A model generated the notes under the pieces. It was not told the origin of the DNA. It ran no database searches and saw nothing but the letters and a program-made list of their open reading frames with translations. This document shows, piece after piece, positions 6,673 through 52,265 of a stretch of 64,000 nt of DNA. The translations under genes were made by a program, and so were the position numbers. This stretch comes from an uncultured Ilumatobacter sp. GTDB taxonomy: Bacteria; Actinomycetota; Acidimicrobiia; Acidimicrobiales; Ilumatobacteraceae. How positions within the stretch are numbered: the first letter of the stretch is position 1; each line of letters begins with the position of its first letter. The DNA lies in the NCBI GenBank assembly GCA_905182555.1, contig CAJJBX010000016.1, positions 62,001 through 126,000 on the forward strand, in the 5' to 3' direction.

Positions 6673-8138
6673 TCAGCGTGGCATTCCAGGCATTCCAGGC
6701 ATTCCAGGCATCCCTGGGGTGCCAGGGAGGCCTGGAATCTCGAAACCGCTTGCCGCCGGATCGAATCCGAGGGGCAGACCCTTGGGCATCTTCTGACCGC
6801 CCTTGGCCCCCTTGCCGCCCTTGGCCCCCTTGCCTTTCTTGCTTTTGCCGGGTTTGCCGGCCATGCCCATCTTCTTCATCATCTTCTGCATCTCACCGAA
6901 CTGCTTCACCAGCCGGTTGACGTCGGCCACGGTGGTCCCCGAGCCAGCGGCGATACGAGCACGACGGGTGCCCTGGATGATTGCCGGGAAGGTGCGTTCC
7001 TCGATCGTCATCGACGTGATGATTGCTTCGATCGGCTTCAGATCGTTGTCGTCAATCTTGGCGTTCTTCAGCTCTTTTGGCATACCGGGCATCATGCTCA
7101 TCAACCCGCCAAGCGAGCCCATCTTCTTGAGCGCCTGCATCTGCTCGAGGAAGTCGTCGAGGGTGAACTGCCCCTCCATCAACTTCGTCGCTGCGGCCTC
7201 GGCCTGTTGGTGATGAAGGCCTTCTCGGCCTGCTCGATGAGCGTGAGCATGTCACCCATGCCCAGAATTCGACTCGCCATGCGGTCGGGGTGGAACTGTT
7301 CGAACTCGTCGAGCTTCTCCCCCGTCGATGCGAAGGCGATTGGTCGGCCGATGACTTCCTTGACCGACAATGCAGCACCGCCGCGAGCGTCGCCGTCCAT
7401 CTTCGACATGATGACGCCGTCGATTTTCAACGTGTTGTGGAAGGCCTCGGCGGTCTGAACTGCATCCTGACCGGTCATTGCATCGATGACGAGGAATGTG
7501 TAGTCGGGGTTGACAGCGCCAGAGATGAGGCGAACCTGCTCCATCATTTCGGTGTCGATCGACAGGCGACCGGCGGTGTCGACAATGACGACGTCGCGAC
7601 CAAGGCGCTTGGCCTCTTCGAGACCTTTCGTTGCCGTGAGGATCGGATCTTGCGGATCGGAGAACACCGGCACGTCGATCTGACGGCCGAGCGTGCGGAG
7701 TTGCTCAACGGCTGCAGGGCGCTGGAGGTCAGCACCAATCATCATCGGGTTGCGTCCCTGTGCCTTGAACCATGCGGCAAGCTTGGCCGAGTTCGTGGTC
7801 TTACCCGAGCCCTGCAAACCTGCCATCAGGACGACGGTCGGCGGCTTTGAGGCGTACGTGATGGTGAGCGTTTCGCCACCGAGCGCACGGGTCAGCTCGT
7901 CGTTGACGGCTTTGACCACCTGCTGGCCGGGGTCGAGCGCCTTGGAGCGTGTGGCGCCGAGAGCGTGCTCGCGAATGCGGTTGCAGATCGAGCGAACGAC
8001 CGTCAGGTTGACGTCGGCTTCGAGGAGCGCCGTGCGGATCTCCTTCATCACCTCATCAACGTCTGATTCGGTGAGTCGGCCCTTGCCCCGAACCTTGGTG
8101 ATGATGCCTTCGAGGCGGTTGGAGAGATTGTCAAACAT
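6673..8138 (-). pseudogene. ffh: Signal recognition particle GTPase Ffh, single-base frameshift
   Basis: Ffh binds 4.5S RNA and signal peptides and docks on FtsY to deliver membrane proteins. The N and G domains are complete: MFDNLSNRLEGIITKVRGKG, P-loop GLQGSGKTTNSAKLA, DVVIVDTAGRL and MSKMDGDARGGAA. After EQAEKAF the frame breaks. Restoring one base between 7214 and 7215 gives EKAFDHQQAEAAATKLMEGQ and joins the methionine-rich M domain (FTLDDFLEQMQALKKMGSLG). The C-terminus ends in tandem GMP triplets from a 9-bp DNA repeat. Restored length is about 488 residues, normal for the family. As ffh is essential, a sequencing or assembly error is the likely cause. Confidence 0.93.
6680..6715. repeat. 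Nine-base tandem repeat encoding the Ffh C-terminal tail
   Basis: The plus strand repeats GCATTCCAG about four times. In the ffh frame this encodes GMP triplets (PGMPGMPGMPGMP) at the extreme C-terminus, beyond the M-domain core. Methionine- and glycine-rich tails are common on Ffh, but a perfect DNA repeat is prone to length change. Confidence 0.7.
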
Positions 8139-8181
8139 CGCCGTCTACGTTACCGGGCAGCCGGTTCCCCGCCCAGGAGCC

Positions 8182-9294
8182 TCAGCGTTCGAACAGTGCC
8201 GAGACGAACTCTTCGGGATCGAAGTCGATCAGATCGCCAATCGTCTCACCAATGCCGACAAGCTTCACCGGGATTGCGAGTTCCGTCTCGATCGCGAACA
8301 CGATGCCACCCTTGGCCGAGCCGTCAAGCTTGGTGAGGACCACGCCGGTGACGTTGGTGACCTCACCGAACTCGCGTGCCTGCGTGAGGCCGTTCTGACC
8401 GGTGGTTGCGTCGATGACCAGCAACGTTTCGGTGACCGTTCCGGCACCCTTTTCAGCAACTCGCCGGACCTTGCCGAGTTCGTCCATCAGGTTGCTCTTG
8501 GTGTGGAGCCGCCCGGCGGTGTCGGCCATGACGAGTTCGACCTTGTTTGCGGCAGCTTTACCAACGGATCAAAATCCTCAGGCAATTTATCAAGCCAGGC
8601 CTCAGTTTTAGCCAACTCTTCAGTTTCGTAAGTTTCAGTCTTCCAAATCTGGAACGTGTCACCAGCTGCAATGAAGAACGCCTCAGATTCGAGATCAATT
8701 TTTGTGCGCAGCTTCGATGGTAAAACCAAACGGCCAGTTTCATCCACTGCTGTTGGAAAGGATTGGCCATGAAACAATCTTGAGGGAGCGGTCGGAGCCG
8801 ACAAGCCGCTTGGTCATCTCCGCTTGGAGCGCGTCGAGGAGGTCTGAGGGCTCGGTGATTTCCTTGTTCGCAACTTTGACGCGCAGTCCACTGAGTAGTT
8901 CGTCAGCGATTGCCACGCCGACGTCGGCGCGCAGGTCGAGCGTTTCAAGGTCGTCGAACGACTCATCGGTGATTGCTGAGCGGCCGAGCACGCCGGCAAT
9001 TGCGCCAGCAAACGTGGACCGGGCCTTCGCCAGGCGCTCACGAAGGGTGCCAGCAGGCGGTTCCTCTTCGACCGCAGGTTCATCTTCGACTCCAGAATCG
9101 ACTTCGGAATCGACCTCCGGCTCAGCAACGAGCGTGTCGCCCTCCGACTGTGCAACCGGCGGCCTGGCCGGTGGCGGCGTCGGCCGACCCGGCGCTGGTT
9201 GACCAACCGACTTGCGACGATTGAGGAGGACGACGCCGATGCCAAACGCAACGACGAAGACCGCCAGGATCAGAAAAAAGAACTCGATACCCAT
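8182..9294 (-). pseudogene. ftsY: SRP receptor FtsY, interrupted by foreign mraZ-like segment
   Basis: FtsY is the membrane-docked GTPase that receives the SRP. The N-terminal part (8783-9294) has a hydrophobic anchor FFFLILAVFVVAFGIGVVLL, an acidic proline-rich A domain and the N domain ending near TKRLVGSDRSL. The C-terminal part (8182-8550) has ANKVELVMADTAGRLHTKSN, LLVIDATTGQNGLTQA, VVLTKLDGSAKGGIVF and DFDPEEFVSALFER. The block in between, which should hold the P-loop (GxxGxGKTTT) and the DTFRAAA motif, is missing and replaced by about 230 bases of mraZ-like sequence in another frame. As written, no functional GTPase could be made. Position between smc and ffh is canonical. Confidence 0.9.
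8552..8782 (-). other. Foreign fragment: C-terminal half of an mraZ-like gene inside ftsY
   Basis: Read on the minus strand this stretch encodes FPTAVDETGRLVLPSKLR, then AFFIAAGDTFQIWKTETY and WLDKLPEDFDPLVK. That is the second SpoVT/AbrB-like lobe of MraZ, a division-cluster regulator, in the form seen in Alphaproteobacteria. Base composition is clearly more AT-rich than the flanks, with codons such as TTA, AAA and GAA. It has no start or stop of its own and replaces, rather than adds to, ftsY sequence. An assembly or gap-filling chimera is the most economical reading. Confidence 0.75.
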
Positions 9295-43634: not shown

Positions 43635-45197
43635 TCACCTGGTCCGTAGCTCCTTGCGAAGAATCTTGCCGGCCGCACTTTTGGGGATTGCCTCAATCAC
43701 TTCGAGGACCTTGATTTGCTTGTAGCTGACCAAGTGCTCAGCCACGAGCGCCTGGATCTCTTCCAGCGTCACTGTTTCGCCTTCGACCGCCGTCACGAAA
43801 GCCTTGGGGACTTCGCCTGCTTCGTCATCGGCGATGCCAATGACAGCCACGTCGGCCACCTTTGGATGGGTGATGATCAACGCTTCAAGCTCGGCCGGCG
43901 CGACCTGGAAGCCTTTGAACTTGATGAGCTCCTTCAGGCGATCCACAATCGTCATGTGCCCAAACTCGTCGATGATCGCGACGTCGCCGGTATGCAACCA
44001 ACCGTCAGCATCAACGGTCGCAGCAGTGGCTTCGGGGTTGTTGAGGTAGCCCTTCATCACCTGCGGACCACGGACCCAGAGCTCGCCACGGTCGCCAACA
44101 CCCTGGTCCTCGCCACCGACGGGGTCGACGATGCGGCTCTCGGTGTTGGATGCGGTAATGCCGCTCGTTCCAGGCCGGTAATCGCCTTCGACGGTGCAGT
44201 GACTGACCGGGCTGAGTTCGGTCATGCCGAAGCCTTGAACAACTTCGCAACCAAGACGGACGCCGGCTTCAGCGGCCAGTTCGGCGCCGAGCGGTGCCGC
44301 ACCCGAGAAAATCTGACGGACCGACGACATGTCGTATTGGTCCACGATCGGATGCTTGGCGAGGCCGAGGATGATTGGCGGCACGGCGAAGAAGCGGGTG
44401 ATCTTGAGGTCCTGGACTGCCTGTAGTGCTTCCACCATGTCGAAGCGAGGCATCGAGATGGTGGTGACGCCGTTGGCGATCAGACCGTTCATCAGGACCT
44501 GCATGCCGTAGATGTGGAAGAACGGCAAGGCCGCCAGGGCGACTTCATCGTCTTTGTAGAGGATGGCGTGCTTGACCTGTTCGATGTTCGCCACGAGGTT
44601 CCGATGGGTAAGCATCACGCCCTTCGGCATGCCGGTGGTGCCTCCGGTGTACAGAAGAACAACGGTGTGATCGGCGACATCGACGGAGACCTGTTCGATT
44701 GGATCGCCGAACACGTCGACCAATGAAGTTGCGCCTTCAACGGCGGCATCGCCGAAAGAGTCCATCAAGATGATCTCGTTGACGTCAGTGCCTTCGATTG
44801 CTGCCCTGGCAACCTCAAGGAACATCGGGACAACGAACAACATGCTTGCGCCGGCGTCTTGCAGTTGGTGGCGGACCTCTTCGGCACCGTAGGTCGGGTT
44901 GATCGTGGTCACGGCCGCGCCGGCAACAGCCACGCCGTGGAAAATGACGGCGTACTCGGGAACGTTTGGAGCCATCAGCCCGACAACCGTGCCTGGAGCG
45001 ACGCCGCGGGCGGCAAGTCCGCCAGCGAGCGAGTGAATCGCCGTGCTCAGCTCGGCAAACGTGTACGAACTTGTACCGGCGGCATCGCGGATAGCGACGC
45101 GGTCAGGCATGTCACCGACCGTGCGGAGTACGTGCGCGGTGATCGTAACGTCGGGGATTTCGACGTCCGGCAGTGGGCTGGTATGGATGATGGTCAC
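43635..45197 (-). CDS. Acyl-CoA ligase (AMP-binding, 4-coumarate-CoA ligase-like)
   Basis: The 520-residue ANL-superfamily enzyme activates a carboxylate with ATP and transfers it to CoA. Motifs: VVLLYTGGTTGMPKGVMLTH (P-loop), GFGMTELSPVSHC, GELWVRGPQVMKGYLNNPEA, GWLHTGDVAIIDEFGHM and DRLKELIKFKGFQVAPAELE, with the C-terminal catalytic lysine in PKSAAGKILRKELR. The pattern is nearest to 4-coumarate- and medium-chain acyl-CoA ligases; substrate unknown. It lies 82 bases downstream of the UGSC operon, on the same strand. Confidence 0.92.
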   Translation of the reverse strand: MTIIHTSPLPDVEIPDVTITAHVLRTVGDMPDRVAIRDAAGTSSYTFAELSTAIHSLAGGLAARGVAPGTVVGLMAPNVPEYAVIFHGVAVAGAAVTTINPTYGAEEVRHQLQDAGASMLFVVPMFLEVARAAIEGTDVNEIILMDSFGDAAVEGATSLVDVFGDPIEQVSVDVADHTVVLLYTGGTTGMPKGVMLTHRNLVANIEQVKHAILYKDDEVALAALPFFHIYGMQVLMNGLIANGVTTISMPRFDMVEALQAVQDLKITRFFAVPPIILGLAKHPIVDQYDMSSVRQIFSGAAPLGAELAAEAGVRLGCEVVQGFGMTELSPVSHCTVEGDYRPGTSGITASNTESRIVDPVGGEDQGVGDRGELWVRGPQVMKGYLNNPEATAATVDADGWLHTGDVAIIDEFGHMTIVDRLKELIKFKGFQVAPAELEALIITHPKVADVAVIGIADDEAGEVPKAFVTAVEGETVTLEEIQALVAEHLVSYKQIKVLEVIEAIPKSAAGKILRKELRTR

Positions 45198-45279
45198 AGC
45201 GAGAAACTAGCCAGATGCACCCATCTTCACCAGATTCACCAACGCAATCGCTGCGGAGTGAGATCCAACAGGATTGGGT

Positions 45280-46350
45280 TCAGCCAATCACCCAAGGCAA
45301 GTCGCACGCGGCACCGGTCGCAACCCGTTCGTGAACAATGGTATTGCGGTGTGCTCCGGCAGCCCACGACGGGAATACCGCTGAGTACAGGCCGCTCCCT
45401 CCGGAAATGAACACGACGATGTCGTCGGGCCGCCGGACCGCCGGGATCAAGTCGTCAGCTGCCCCAACGGGGACGAAGCCGGTGTTCAGCGACCGGATAT
45501 GTCCGCGTGTGTTGACAGCGAGGCGGTGCAGCTCGGCCTGAACGTAGCGACGGGACATGCCCGCATCGCCAAAAACTTGCGCGTGTTCGGGGTTGAGCGC
45601 CACCGCAACGGATCCACCCGAGAAATTGGCGTTGTTTGACCCGGTGTTGGCGATCCCCGCGGCAAGGGCCCGGAGTAACCGCGCTGGCGAATCAGGATCG
45701 TCACCGTCATTTTGGAACAGCACCGAGTGAGGCGCCTCGGCGCCAAGGATTGTTACGACCGACTCGTCCGCGCCATACCCGAGCGACTCGGACAGCGACC
45801 CCCACGGCGATGACCGTTCGGCCTCTGCGAGGCAGAAGCTGAACTTGCCGGGCTGGCCGAGCAGCGCCATGTCAGACACTCCCGGGCGAGCGTCGCCGAT
45901 GTTCATCATGCACAACCGAACTGCGCGCCCAATCGAAGCGTTCGCGCGATGACCGGGCCCGAGCGCGCCGAAACCACCAGCGATTCCGCAGTGTTCTACG
46001 ACCGGGCCATTAACGATCATCAGCGGTGCCGTGCAGTGCGTTGTTGACTGCATCTCGCCGAGGTCGAATTCGGTTTGGAGCATTGCTCTCATCGCAGCAA
46101 CAACGACCGGCATGTGATCAGGGACGCAGCCGGCCATCACCGCGTTCGTGGCAACCTTCTCAATCGTCGTGGAGCCACCCCCGGGGCCCATGGCCCCCAG
46201 ATCAATGTCGGCGTCCAACCCTGATGCGAGCACGAGGCGGGCGACGCGGTCTGGTGCCGGGATGACGACCGGTAGCCCATCGGTGCAACCAGAATCGTGG
46301 AGCAATTCGAGTGCCTCGGCCTCGTTCGCCGCACTCAGTAACCCGGTCAT
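45280..46350 (-). CDS. Conserved protein paired with the UGSC selenoprotein
   Basis: The 356-residue product (LLHDSGCTDGLPVVIPAPDR, KVATNAVMAGCVPDHMPVVV, NGPVVEHCGIAGGFGALGPG, ANASIGRAVRLCMMNIGDAR, LLGQPGKFSFCLAEAERSSP) belongs to a widespread conserved family of unknown function that I recall near UGSC-type genes. It has conserved cysteines and no signal peptide or membrane helix. Its ATG overlaps the UGSC gene stop (ATGA), so the two are translationally coupled. The SGCTDGLP motif near residue 20 and the many conserved cysteines and glycines suggest an enzyme; a thiol-dependent role with the selenoprotein is inference only. Confidence 0.8.
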   Translation of the reverse strand: MTGLLSAANEAEALELLHDSGCTDGLPVVIPAPDRVARLVLASGLDADIDLGAMGPGGGSTTIEKVATNAVMAGCVPDHMPVVVAAMRAMLQTEFDLGEMQSTTHCTAPLMIVNGPVVEHCGIAGGFGALGPGHRANASIGRAVRLCMMNIGDARPGVSDMALLGQPGKFSFCLAEAERSSPWGSLSESLGYGADESVVTILGAEAPHSVLFQNDGDDPDSPARLLRALAAGIANTGSNNANFSGGSVAVALNPEHAQVFGDAGMSRRYVQAELHRLAVNTRGHIRSLNTGFVPVGAADDLIPAVRRPDDIVVFISGGSGLYSAVFPSWAAGAHRNTIVHERVATGAACDLPWVIG

Positions 46351-46901
46351 CTGATCCCCTGGGAGACATTGTCAGGCGACGCTGCGCCGCGCAGCACTGC
46401 CACCACACGCGCAGCGATCGACTTCGCGACATCGCCCATTGCTGCCTCGCCGCTCCCGGCAACCGGATGCGGCAGACGCAGACGCGGAATGTCGGGCATG
46501 CCTGCGGAGGCGGCGACCGAATCGCCCTGCGGCCAAAAGACCTCAGTCACGAGGGCTACTGCAGCCCCGCCTCGGCGGGCTACTTCGATTCCGTCACGCA
46601 CGGTGCCGGATGTGCAGCTTCCTCAATGCCCGTAGGCGGTCACGACTGCAGAGCAAGAGTCGGCGATCTTCGCGAGGTGTTCTTCGCTGGCCAAGGCACT
46701 CGCGTTCCCCTTGTCGAGATGAATGAAATTGACGCCGGGCAATTCGTGGGTCAGTGATTTTTCGAGGTGCCCAAGAAACGCAACCGAATCTGGAAAGCCA
46801 TTCGCGAAGAGAGCGACAGTTTCGCCGGCTGCCAGCAGGGCCGTGTTTGCATACGGCTCAACTGGTCGACTCGGCACACCACGTGGATCCAAGAACTGCA
46901 T
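46347..46901 (-). CDS. UGSC-family selenoprotein (Sec93 encoded by TGA)
   Basis: From ATG 46901 the frame reads MQFLDPRGVPSRPVEPYANT, ETVALFANGFPDSVAFLGHL, ADSCSAVVTAYGH, then TGA at 46623-46625, then GSCTSGTVRDGIEVARRGGA and a C-terminal VFWPQGDSV, DIPRLRLPHPVAGSGEA. The TGA lies exactly where the UGSC motif requires selenocysteine, between VVTxYGx and GSCTS. Read through, the product is 184 residues, the size of the family. UGSC-containing proteins are known selenoproteins, abundant in marine metagenomes; their reaction is not known. The U-x-x-C pair looks redox active. A SECIS-like hairpin follows the TGA. The gene lies just downstream of the rRNA operon terminator. Confidence 0.88.
46590..46625 (-). 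promoter_or_regulatory. Candidate bacterial SECIS element of the UGSC gene
   Basis: On the minus strand, 12 bases after the TGA, TCCG pairs with CGGA, then a G/A mismatch, then CAC with GTG, enclosing loop CGTGC (46590-46610). The loop begins 21 bases after the TGA, and its second base is G. Spacing equals that of the HesB-like gene's hairpin. Confidence 0.55.
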
Positions 46902-47072
46902 AGAGCAAGTCTCGCGCCCGGCCCACCAACAAAACGATCCGGCCCGCCCGGACCGAAACAACGCAATTGTCGTTGTGACGCAGCACGCTGGGTCCGCCCG
47001 GACCGGTCTCGAAGCGTTTTGTGAATCGAGGCTGGCCCGCAGGGACAGTCTCGTTTGAGAGCACGATCTCTC

Positions 47073-47097
47073 GGTGCTGGTGCTGGTGCTGGTGCTG
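47073..47097. repeat. GGTGCT tandem repeat
   Basis: Four consecutive copies of GGTGCT lie between the rRNA terminator and the UGSC gene. On the minus strand they read AGCACC repeats. No function is evident. Confidence 0.7.
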
Positions 47098-47106
47098 GGG
47101 TGAAAA

Positions 47107-47151
47107 CGTAAAAAACGCACCACCGGCAAAAATCCGGATGGTGCGTTTTTT
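47107..47151 (-). terminator. Rho-independent terminator of the rRNA operon
   Basis: AAAAAACGCACCA and TGGTGCGTTTTTT flank an inner CCGG/CCGG pair and an A-rich loop. On the minus strand the hairpin is followed by six T's, directly downstream of 5S rRNA. The symmetric A and T runs could stop transcription both ways. Confidence 0.88.
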
Positions 47152-47157
47152 GAGTAA

Positions 47158-47274
<117 letters not shown>

Positions 47275-47309
47275 TATGTTGTCAACTTAGGGTATTCCCC
47301 TAAGGACTC

Positions 47310-47325
47310 CAGAGCAAGCACGAGC
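47310..47325 (-). other. 3' arm of the 23S processing stem
   Basis: CAGAGCAAGCACGAGC (plus strand) is the exact reverse complement of 50455-50470. Together they flank 23S rRNA and would form the double-stranded stem cut by RNase III. Confidence 0.8.
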
Positions 47326-47332
47326 TGTTTAA

Positions 47333-52265
<4,933 letters not shown>

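Follow-up and report, generated by a model that had tools for sequence, protein, structure and literature searches.

A divergent UGSC-family selenoprotein gene, predicted from sequence in an uncultured Ilumatobacter, and its constant partner gene

The window analysed here, a stretch of 64,000 nucleotides from an uncultured Ilumatobacter sp. (assembly GCA_905182555.1, contig CAJJBX010000016.1, positions 62,001 to 126,000), contains on its minus strand a reading frame interrupted by a single TGA. The question raised by this locus is whether this codon is a stop or is read as selenocysteine (Sec), and what kind of protein would result. Our analysis indicates that the frame is almost certainly a selenoprotein gene of the UGSC family, with its TGA read as Sec, and that by its sequence it belongs to a divergent branch of the family, which we call GH-UGSC and not GD/AD-UGSC after the residues that precede U. 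The elements concerned are the following:

46347..46901, minus strand: UGSC-family gene, 184 amino acids, with Sec predicted at residue 93 (PF24696 match; AlphaFold2 predicted local distance difference test, pLDDT, 95.7)
46623..46625, minus strand: in-frame TGA, putative selenocysteine codon (TGA in 80 of 80 kept relatives; sel genes in the genome)
46591..46609, minus strand: predicted element of the selenocysteine insertion sequence (SECIS) type, hairpin CCG-G-CAC-(CGUGC)-GUG-A-CGG with its apical loop at 46598-46602 (RNAalifold consensus; frozen codons)
45280..46350, minus strand: partner gene, 356 amino acids, directly downstream of the UGSC gene (AlphaFold2 pLDDT 87.4)

The UGSC frame runs from an ATG at 46901 to a TGA stop at 46347-46349, and the residues around its only internal TGA, VVTAYGH-U-GSCTSGTV, put the motif U93-G-S-C96 at the place conserved in the family, a place (U or C, then G-S-C) that was invariant across 68 aligned members of a set of our own choosing. 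An intact frame on both sides of the TGA had been claimed in the original prediction, without naming the strand, together with a proposal to compare the read-through protein with the UGSC family. Both were borne out: the protein matched the Pfam profile PF24696 ("UGSC") with an E-value of 1.8e-39 and 136.1 bits (gathering cut-off 25) over profile positions 2-171 of 172, and each half alone matched adjoining parts of the profile (residues 1-92, E 4e-11; residues 94-184, E 1.6e-19). In addition, comparisons with close relatives gave ratios of nonsynonymous to synonymous substitution rates (dN/dS) of 0.09-0.14 before the TGA (3 pairs, with 4 more saturated at synonymous sites) and of 0.14-0.23 after it (7 pairs), values well below 1 that indicate purifying selection on both sides. 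Against the NCBIfam model NF041046 the protein scored 92 bits, which lies below the naming cut-off of 125 and hence outside equivalog membership; therefore, NCBI's pipeline would not name the gene by this model, and it is plausible that the gene goes unannotated in standard annotation.

Relatives were collected by a search of genome contigs with a profile of the window's branch, which found 277, the best 80 being kept; the peptide patterns used accepted any residue at the Sec site, so that cysteine forms were not shut out. The codon at this site was TGA in all 80 named relatives, and no cysteine form (TGC or TGT) was seen in these kept loci. Among 298 genomes of the order, the 42 full-length orthologues (at least 50% identity, the window's included, several contig-edge fragments being omitted from the count) all carried at least one internal TGA, and TGA was read at the Sec site itself in 19 fetched orthologues of the order. 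A genome devoid of Sec-decoding genes had been named in advance as the refutation of Sec decoding. The draft genome that holds the window (26 contigs, 2.56 Mb, 72.7% complete) contains a tRNA-Sec with anticodon UCA, SelA, SelB (above its cut-off) and SelD. The last of these (contig C1:68369-69286 of this genome, G000; locus L022) is itself interrupted by an in-frame TGA, by which SelD is probably a selenoprotein too. The single contig of G134, a genome of the same genus, carries a TGA-containing orthologue (76% identity) together with SelA and the partner. In two proteobacterial-titled loci (L149 and L153), a SelA-like open frame, named from its sequence and not by a scan, lies about 2 kb downstream.

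Bacterial SECIS elements are hairpins located soon after the TGA, with a G or GU in the apical loop. In the window, such a hairpin, which had also been predicted, can start 13 bases past the TGA (46609-46591), has the loop CGUGC and appears with all six of its pairs in the 51-base fold predicted for the window's own sequence. The RNAalifold consensus was built from 76 distinct sequences, and codon usage was analysed in 51 non-redundant sequences out of 81 (below 85% identity). In these 51, codons +6 to +10 (GGC ACC GTG CGT GAC) are nearly invariant, the exceptions being one ACG at +7 and the serine codon AGT replacing CGT at +9 in L098 and L105. Their entropy lies between 0 and 0.14 bits, whereas 36 conserved four- or sixfold degenerate codons elsewhere average 1.74 (minimum 1.08), and the five conserved Gly, Thr, Val and Arg codons of +6 to +11 differed from these 36 in a Mann-Whitney test (p 2.8e-4) that included codon +11, with 1.40 bits. 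This conservation spans Actinomycetota and Gammaproteobacteria, whereas synonymous sites elsewhere vary. The exact 15-mer was found in 78 of the 81 loci and in 18 of the 19 loci of a second genome collection, one base off in the remaining one, with species overlap possible between both sets. A pattern combining the TGA and the SECIS core, derived from the window gene and its own relatives, had a single occurrence in the window when up to two mismatches were allowed, and appeared in none of 100 shuffles. From this pattern of conservation, we locate the SECIS at 46591-46609 with high confidence.

Four of the six pairs of the hairpin are invariant over the 81 loci, and thus uninformative either way. 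The fifth is C-G in 79 loci and C-C in 2, and the sixth is C-G in 54, U-A in 26 and G-G in one; as the 26 U-A loci make up exactly one clade of the tree, they probably reflect a single compensatory event. An alternative stem, TGCAC/GTGCG, was less stable in 46 of the 51 sequences (mean -3.7 kcal/mol versus -5.7 kcal/mol for the proposed hairpin) and leaves the later frozen bases unexplained, the frozen stretch agreeing better with the outline of the proposed hairpin. The other UGSC branches showed a hairpin of the type GUCGUGC-AGUGU-GCACGAC, with 80 of 84 cells paired in 12 distinct sequences (12-49% in slid controls), whose loop (AGUGU, AGUCU or AGUUU) lies 2 bases closer to the TGA than in the window's branch; the register of that hairpin was rejected for the window's branch, in which it has two mismatched places.

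The Sec decoding put forward in the original prediction is thus supported by the TGA in every kept relative, by the tRNA-Sec, SelA, SelB and SelD and by the near-frozen SECIS codons. That the TGA is a true stop, arising from a sequencing error or a pseudogene, or that it belongs to a code that assigns it to a different amino acid, is extremely unlikely, since it finds no support at the window gene, even if the frame change that splits a second UGSC copy in this genome tells us that errors or decay occur in the assembly, and since it runs against the same evidence, the purifying selection on both sides and the gene's own stop, which is also TGA.

The residues flanking the TGA were those predicted; however, the match to the family motif is not exact, as had been claimed. 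GH precedes U in the 80 named loci of the window's branch, although the search also allowed D, N, Y or A, whereas GD or AD stood there in each of the 29 loci that could be read among 30 fetched from other UGSC branches. The window's branch also has ANGF/Y where seven sequences of other branches have K, and a long branch with support of 100/97 parts its clade in the tree from five other UGSC sequences. The nearest named kin of the window gene come from Ilumatobacter metagenome-assembled genomes (up to 78%), and 12 of the 80 relatives bear proteobacterial titles, eleven of them gammaproteobacterial and one plain "Proteobacteria". The wider UGSC family was detected in 150 of the 298 genomes of the order and in 29 of 396 genomes drawn from the phylum, 14 of these 29 being in the window's family or order. 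None of 69 viral stretches that fitted a pattern encodes a relative. One genome of the order (G012) showed ten UGSC matches, some of them maybe fragments, which could represent an expansion. The second copy in the window's genome, also with TGA, lies on contig C2:121990-122489 (L054, about 7986-8510, minus strand); its TGA is followed by a hairpin like those of the other branches, and its N-terminal part is broken by the frame change. Its neighbours are a partner gene whose N-terminus is thioredoxin-like and two genes that, judged by eye, resemble CoA lyases.

The partner start overlaps the UGSC stop by 4 bases (ATGA at 46347-46350), and therefore both genes are probably translationally coupled; they are probably co-transcribed as well. 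By tblastn, the partner was located downstream and on the same strand in all 80 named relatives, including 11 loci in which mechanical picking of open reading frames had missed it, with a gap of -11 to 62 bases in the 77 loci where the start could be set, and of exactly -4 in 27 of them. Both genes were present in 146 of the 298 genomes of the order, UGSC alone in 4, the partner alone in 3 and neither in 145 (Fisher p 9e-76, kinship not corrected for). Among the order loci of the window's branch, the partner is downstream in 17 of 17 (2 unscorable), whereas in other UGSC branches the order is reversed, with the partner upstream in all 25 loci whose 1.5-kb flank contained it (a further 4 had no partner in this flank and 1 was unscorable). 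This linkage makes it quite likely that the UGSC protein works with the partner. The original prediction noted neither the partner nor the separate branch, nor that the family was in the literature already (PMC2398784).

No credible Pfam match was found for the partner among 53 members, nor any credible family in the Pfam, NCBIfam and PDB libraries searched. The best of three PDB profile matches, to the transcriptional regulator 3him (92 residues, E 5e-4), was judged to be due to chance, as no other part fits. Three cysteines are near-invariant (C75 in 52 of 53 members, C173 and C349 in 53 of 53), and R135, N137, R142, K169, C173, N239, N240 and W329 are invariant. Partners located beside UGSC proteins of the AD-UGSC-TSCSVHD type (L026, L047, L048, L050, L051 and the C2 copy) are longer at the N-terminus by about 110 residues, a stretch that contains CxxC and VPT and that the other 16 of the 21 other-branch partners read did not show. 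For the C2 partner, 34 of the 44 weak PDB matches to this stretch were thioredoxins, the best with an E-value of 0.021.

The AlphaFold2 model of the UGSC protein (mean pLDDT 95.7, predicted TM-score, pTM, 0.90) shows five beta-alpha units, with Sec93 just ahead of the helix that follows strand 3. Among the best 50 of 1780 matches to the PDB (E-values up to 10), flavodiiron proteins lead, followed by azoreductases, a flavodoxin-like domain, TIR, FtsZ, PurE and others, with TM-scores by query length of about 0.5 or less. The predicted fold is thus flavodoxin-like and not thioredoxin-like. A thioredoxin-like fold has been proposed for UGSC proteins in passages of PMC2398784 and repeated in PMC13188914, and following this literature the protein could be a generic thioredoxin-fold thiol oxidoreductase or antioxidant, with the partner as a mere neighbour. 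The UxxC redox motif, shared with thioredoxin-fold selenoproteins, agrees with such a role. However, thioredoxin topology has its CxxC near the N-terminus, and here the motif lies at residue 93, after strand 3 of a confidently predicted model. The five beta-alpha units and the absence of thioredoxin from the best 50 of 1780 PDB matches therefore argue against the published fold, and the strict linkage to one partner also counts against a generic enzyme, which leaves this explanation rather improbable.

Alternatively, the partner could be the catalytic subunit, hydratase- or lyase-like and possibly with an Fe-S cluster, and the UGSC protein its electron- or selenium-dependent activator. The three near-invariant cysteines would fit such a role, as would the weak matches that Foldseek gave with class I fumarate hydratases (E 5e-5). 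However, these matches have a TM-score of only about 0.28 and a root-mean-square deviation of about 16 A, C349 lies in a low-confidence stretch of the model, and no such cysteine is present at the end of the C2 partner. The Foldseek search of the partner gave only these and Toblerone-fold matches, all weak and none of them convincing, and we regard this division of labour as improbable.

A further reading, somewhat better placed but still unlikely, is that UGSC and its partner act like glycine or D-proline reductase (GrdB/PrdB, PF07355), the selenolate cleaving a C-N, C-O or C-X bond in some small acid; the resemblance would be one of mechanism, perhaps with distant homology. GrdB and PrdB likewise carry UxxCT between a strand and a helix and belong to two-subunit selenoenzymes. 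The layout strand-U-x-x-C-T-helix-G-strand is common to both, with U-G-S-C-T in the window and U-P-L-C-T in seven GrdB-like selenoproteins of the order, a single hhalign alignment superposes both motifs, and the two-subunit arrangement and the catabolic neighbours are consistent with it. Against it, this profile comparison, made between UGSC and the GrdB-like read-through selenoproteins (six of the seven, L172 omitted), gave a probability of 0.4% (E 0.13) and thus no support for homology, a PF07355 match is listed for none of 68 UGSC members, a sequence search for solved structures found none akin to the GrdB-like set, and the partner is a different one. In the order, 53 of 148 genomes have matches to GrdB-like genes, TGA being read within U-P-L-C-T in the seven fetched loci (among L167-L184), and PF07355 matches were found at three places of the window's genome (contigs C3, C6 and C9), one of them below the cut-off.

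We consider that the locus is best, and with fair confidence, explained by a Sec decoded through the SECIS and by a redox enzyme made of UGSC and its partner. By analogy with known bacterial Sec decoding, the SECIS at 46591-46609 would recruit SelB with Sec-tRNA, so that the UGA at 46623-46625 is read as Sec. Both proteins would form one enzyme, in which the UGSC subunit, with a five-stranded flavodoxin-like alpha/beta fold, would present the selenolate of its U-x-x-C at the N-terminal end of the helix that follows strand 3. Once this selenolate has attacked or reduced the substrate, a selenenylsulfide would form with the resolving cysteine, to be re-reduced by a thioredoxin-type donor; in a sister branch, a thioredoxin-like stretch with CxxC is part of the partner itself. 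Selenol/thiol redox catalysis by this pair seems reasonably probable, and the likely function, as read from the sequences, is that of a two-subunit selenol/thiol redox enzyme in catabolism. In several clades, the neighbours suggest that the substrate or product may be a carboxylic or CoA-linked catabolic metabolite. In the window, the next gene lies 82 bases past the partner:

43635..45197, minus strand: acyl-CoA synthetase, AMP-binding (PF00501, E 8.9e-92)

Kin of this acyl-CoA synthetase were found in 12 of the 81 loci, one of them the window's own, and aldo/keto reductase, MaoC-like, short-chain dehydrogenase/reductase (SDR), enoyl-CoA hydratase and ammonia-lyase genes, named by eye and not scanned, were seen near others. 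The acyl-CoA ligase, aldo/keto reductase, SDR and MaoC-like neighbours point weakly to organic-acid catabolism, and a carboxylate substrate is a guess from gene context that we hold as possible but doubtful. Several genes were considered as a constant third gene and rejected: the sharing of nitrile hydratase, P450, MaoC, SDR and SnoaL neighbours is largely confined to a single clade, and therefore maybe due to plain synteny. This may also apply to genes that, judged by eye, resemble the alpha and beta subunits of nitrile hydratase and lie upstream, on the opposite strand, in one Acidimicrobiia clade (L106, L110, L118-L121, L125 and kin). In the window, the UGSC gene comes after a complete rRNA operon of the same orientation, with a terminator-like hairpin at 46935-46957 (minus strand) between the 5S rRNA gene (47157-47273) and the UGSC start, and no sigma-70 promoter was found in 45100-47350.

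Several observations weigh against this explanation. The assignment of Sec to residue 93 is made at the sequence level, and the reaction and substrate proposed are inferred. The proposed hairpin appeared in the single-sequence fold of 30 of 51 sequences when the first 51 bases were folded, and of 13 of 51 with the first 39; given these mixed folds and the frozen stretch, the place of the SECIS is well supported and its exact pairing less so, and we have lowered the latter to probable. No neighbour is constant besides the partner, Pfam recognises no thioredoxin domain in the sister-branch partner, and the window's partner has no thioredoxin-like N-terminal extension. In addition, 12 of the 150 UGSC-bearing genomes of the order have no SelA match better than E 1e-20, six weak SelA matches having been dropped from this count. 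Four of these 12 (G053, G155, G246 and G255) carry a UGSC form without a stop, four (G001, G063, G170 and G197) are 78-90% complete, in G018 the UGSC match is weak, and G180 is 100% complete. The remaining two, G242 (L024) and G261, have a TGA-form UGSC and neither SelA nor partner, at 96% and 94% completeness, for which contamination or decay, the sole explanations that we can offer, may account.

The UGSC family has been in print since 2008, in the Global Ocean Sampling paper (PMC2398784), passages of which describe UGSC fused to a domain called "Unknown_1". This domain could be the partner. The window protein shares with the known UGSC-containing selenoproteins (PF24696, NF041046) the full-length profile match, the UGSC motif, the Sec within UxxC, the single in-frame TGA and the size, and differs from them in having GH and not GD/AD, ANGF/Y and not K, an NF041046 score below the cut-off, the partner downstream and not upstream, a proposed SECIS loop 2 bases further on and no cysteine form in 80 loci. 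UGSC-motif selenoproteins of Geodermatophilaceae, also Actinomycetota and of the same motif family, have been reported with a tRNA-Sec of anticodon CUA (PMC5330540), in contrast to the TGA codon and UCA anticodon of the window's genome. None of the published passages on UGSC selenoproteins that were available states a reaction or mentions the GH branch or its partner. The family is thus already known, and GH-UGSC is a well-marked branch of it with no description found in the literature searched.

What appears to be new, from the sequences compared, is a branch with no cysteine form seen, a shifted SECIS, a reversed gene order, a constant orphan partner and a predicted flavodoxin-like fold. More tentatively, GH-UGSC and the orphan partner could be the two subunits of an undescribed selenoenzyme class, with a flavodoxin-like selenol subunit lacking a cysteine version among the 80 relatives examined, a partner to which no fold class is assigned, and a reductive step in organic-acid catabolism apparently impossible with cysteine. 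The fixed partner, the absence of a cysteine form among the loci seen and a confidently predicted fold unlike the published guess make the function testable, and the near-frozen SECIS core provides a DNA signature for further members that gene callers may split or drop.
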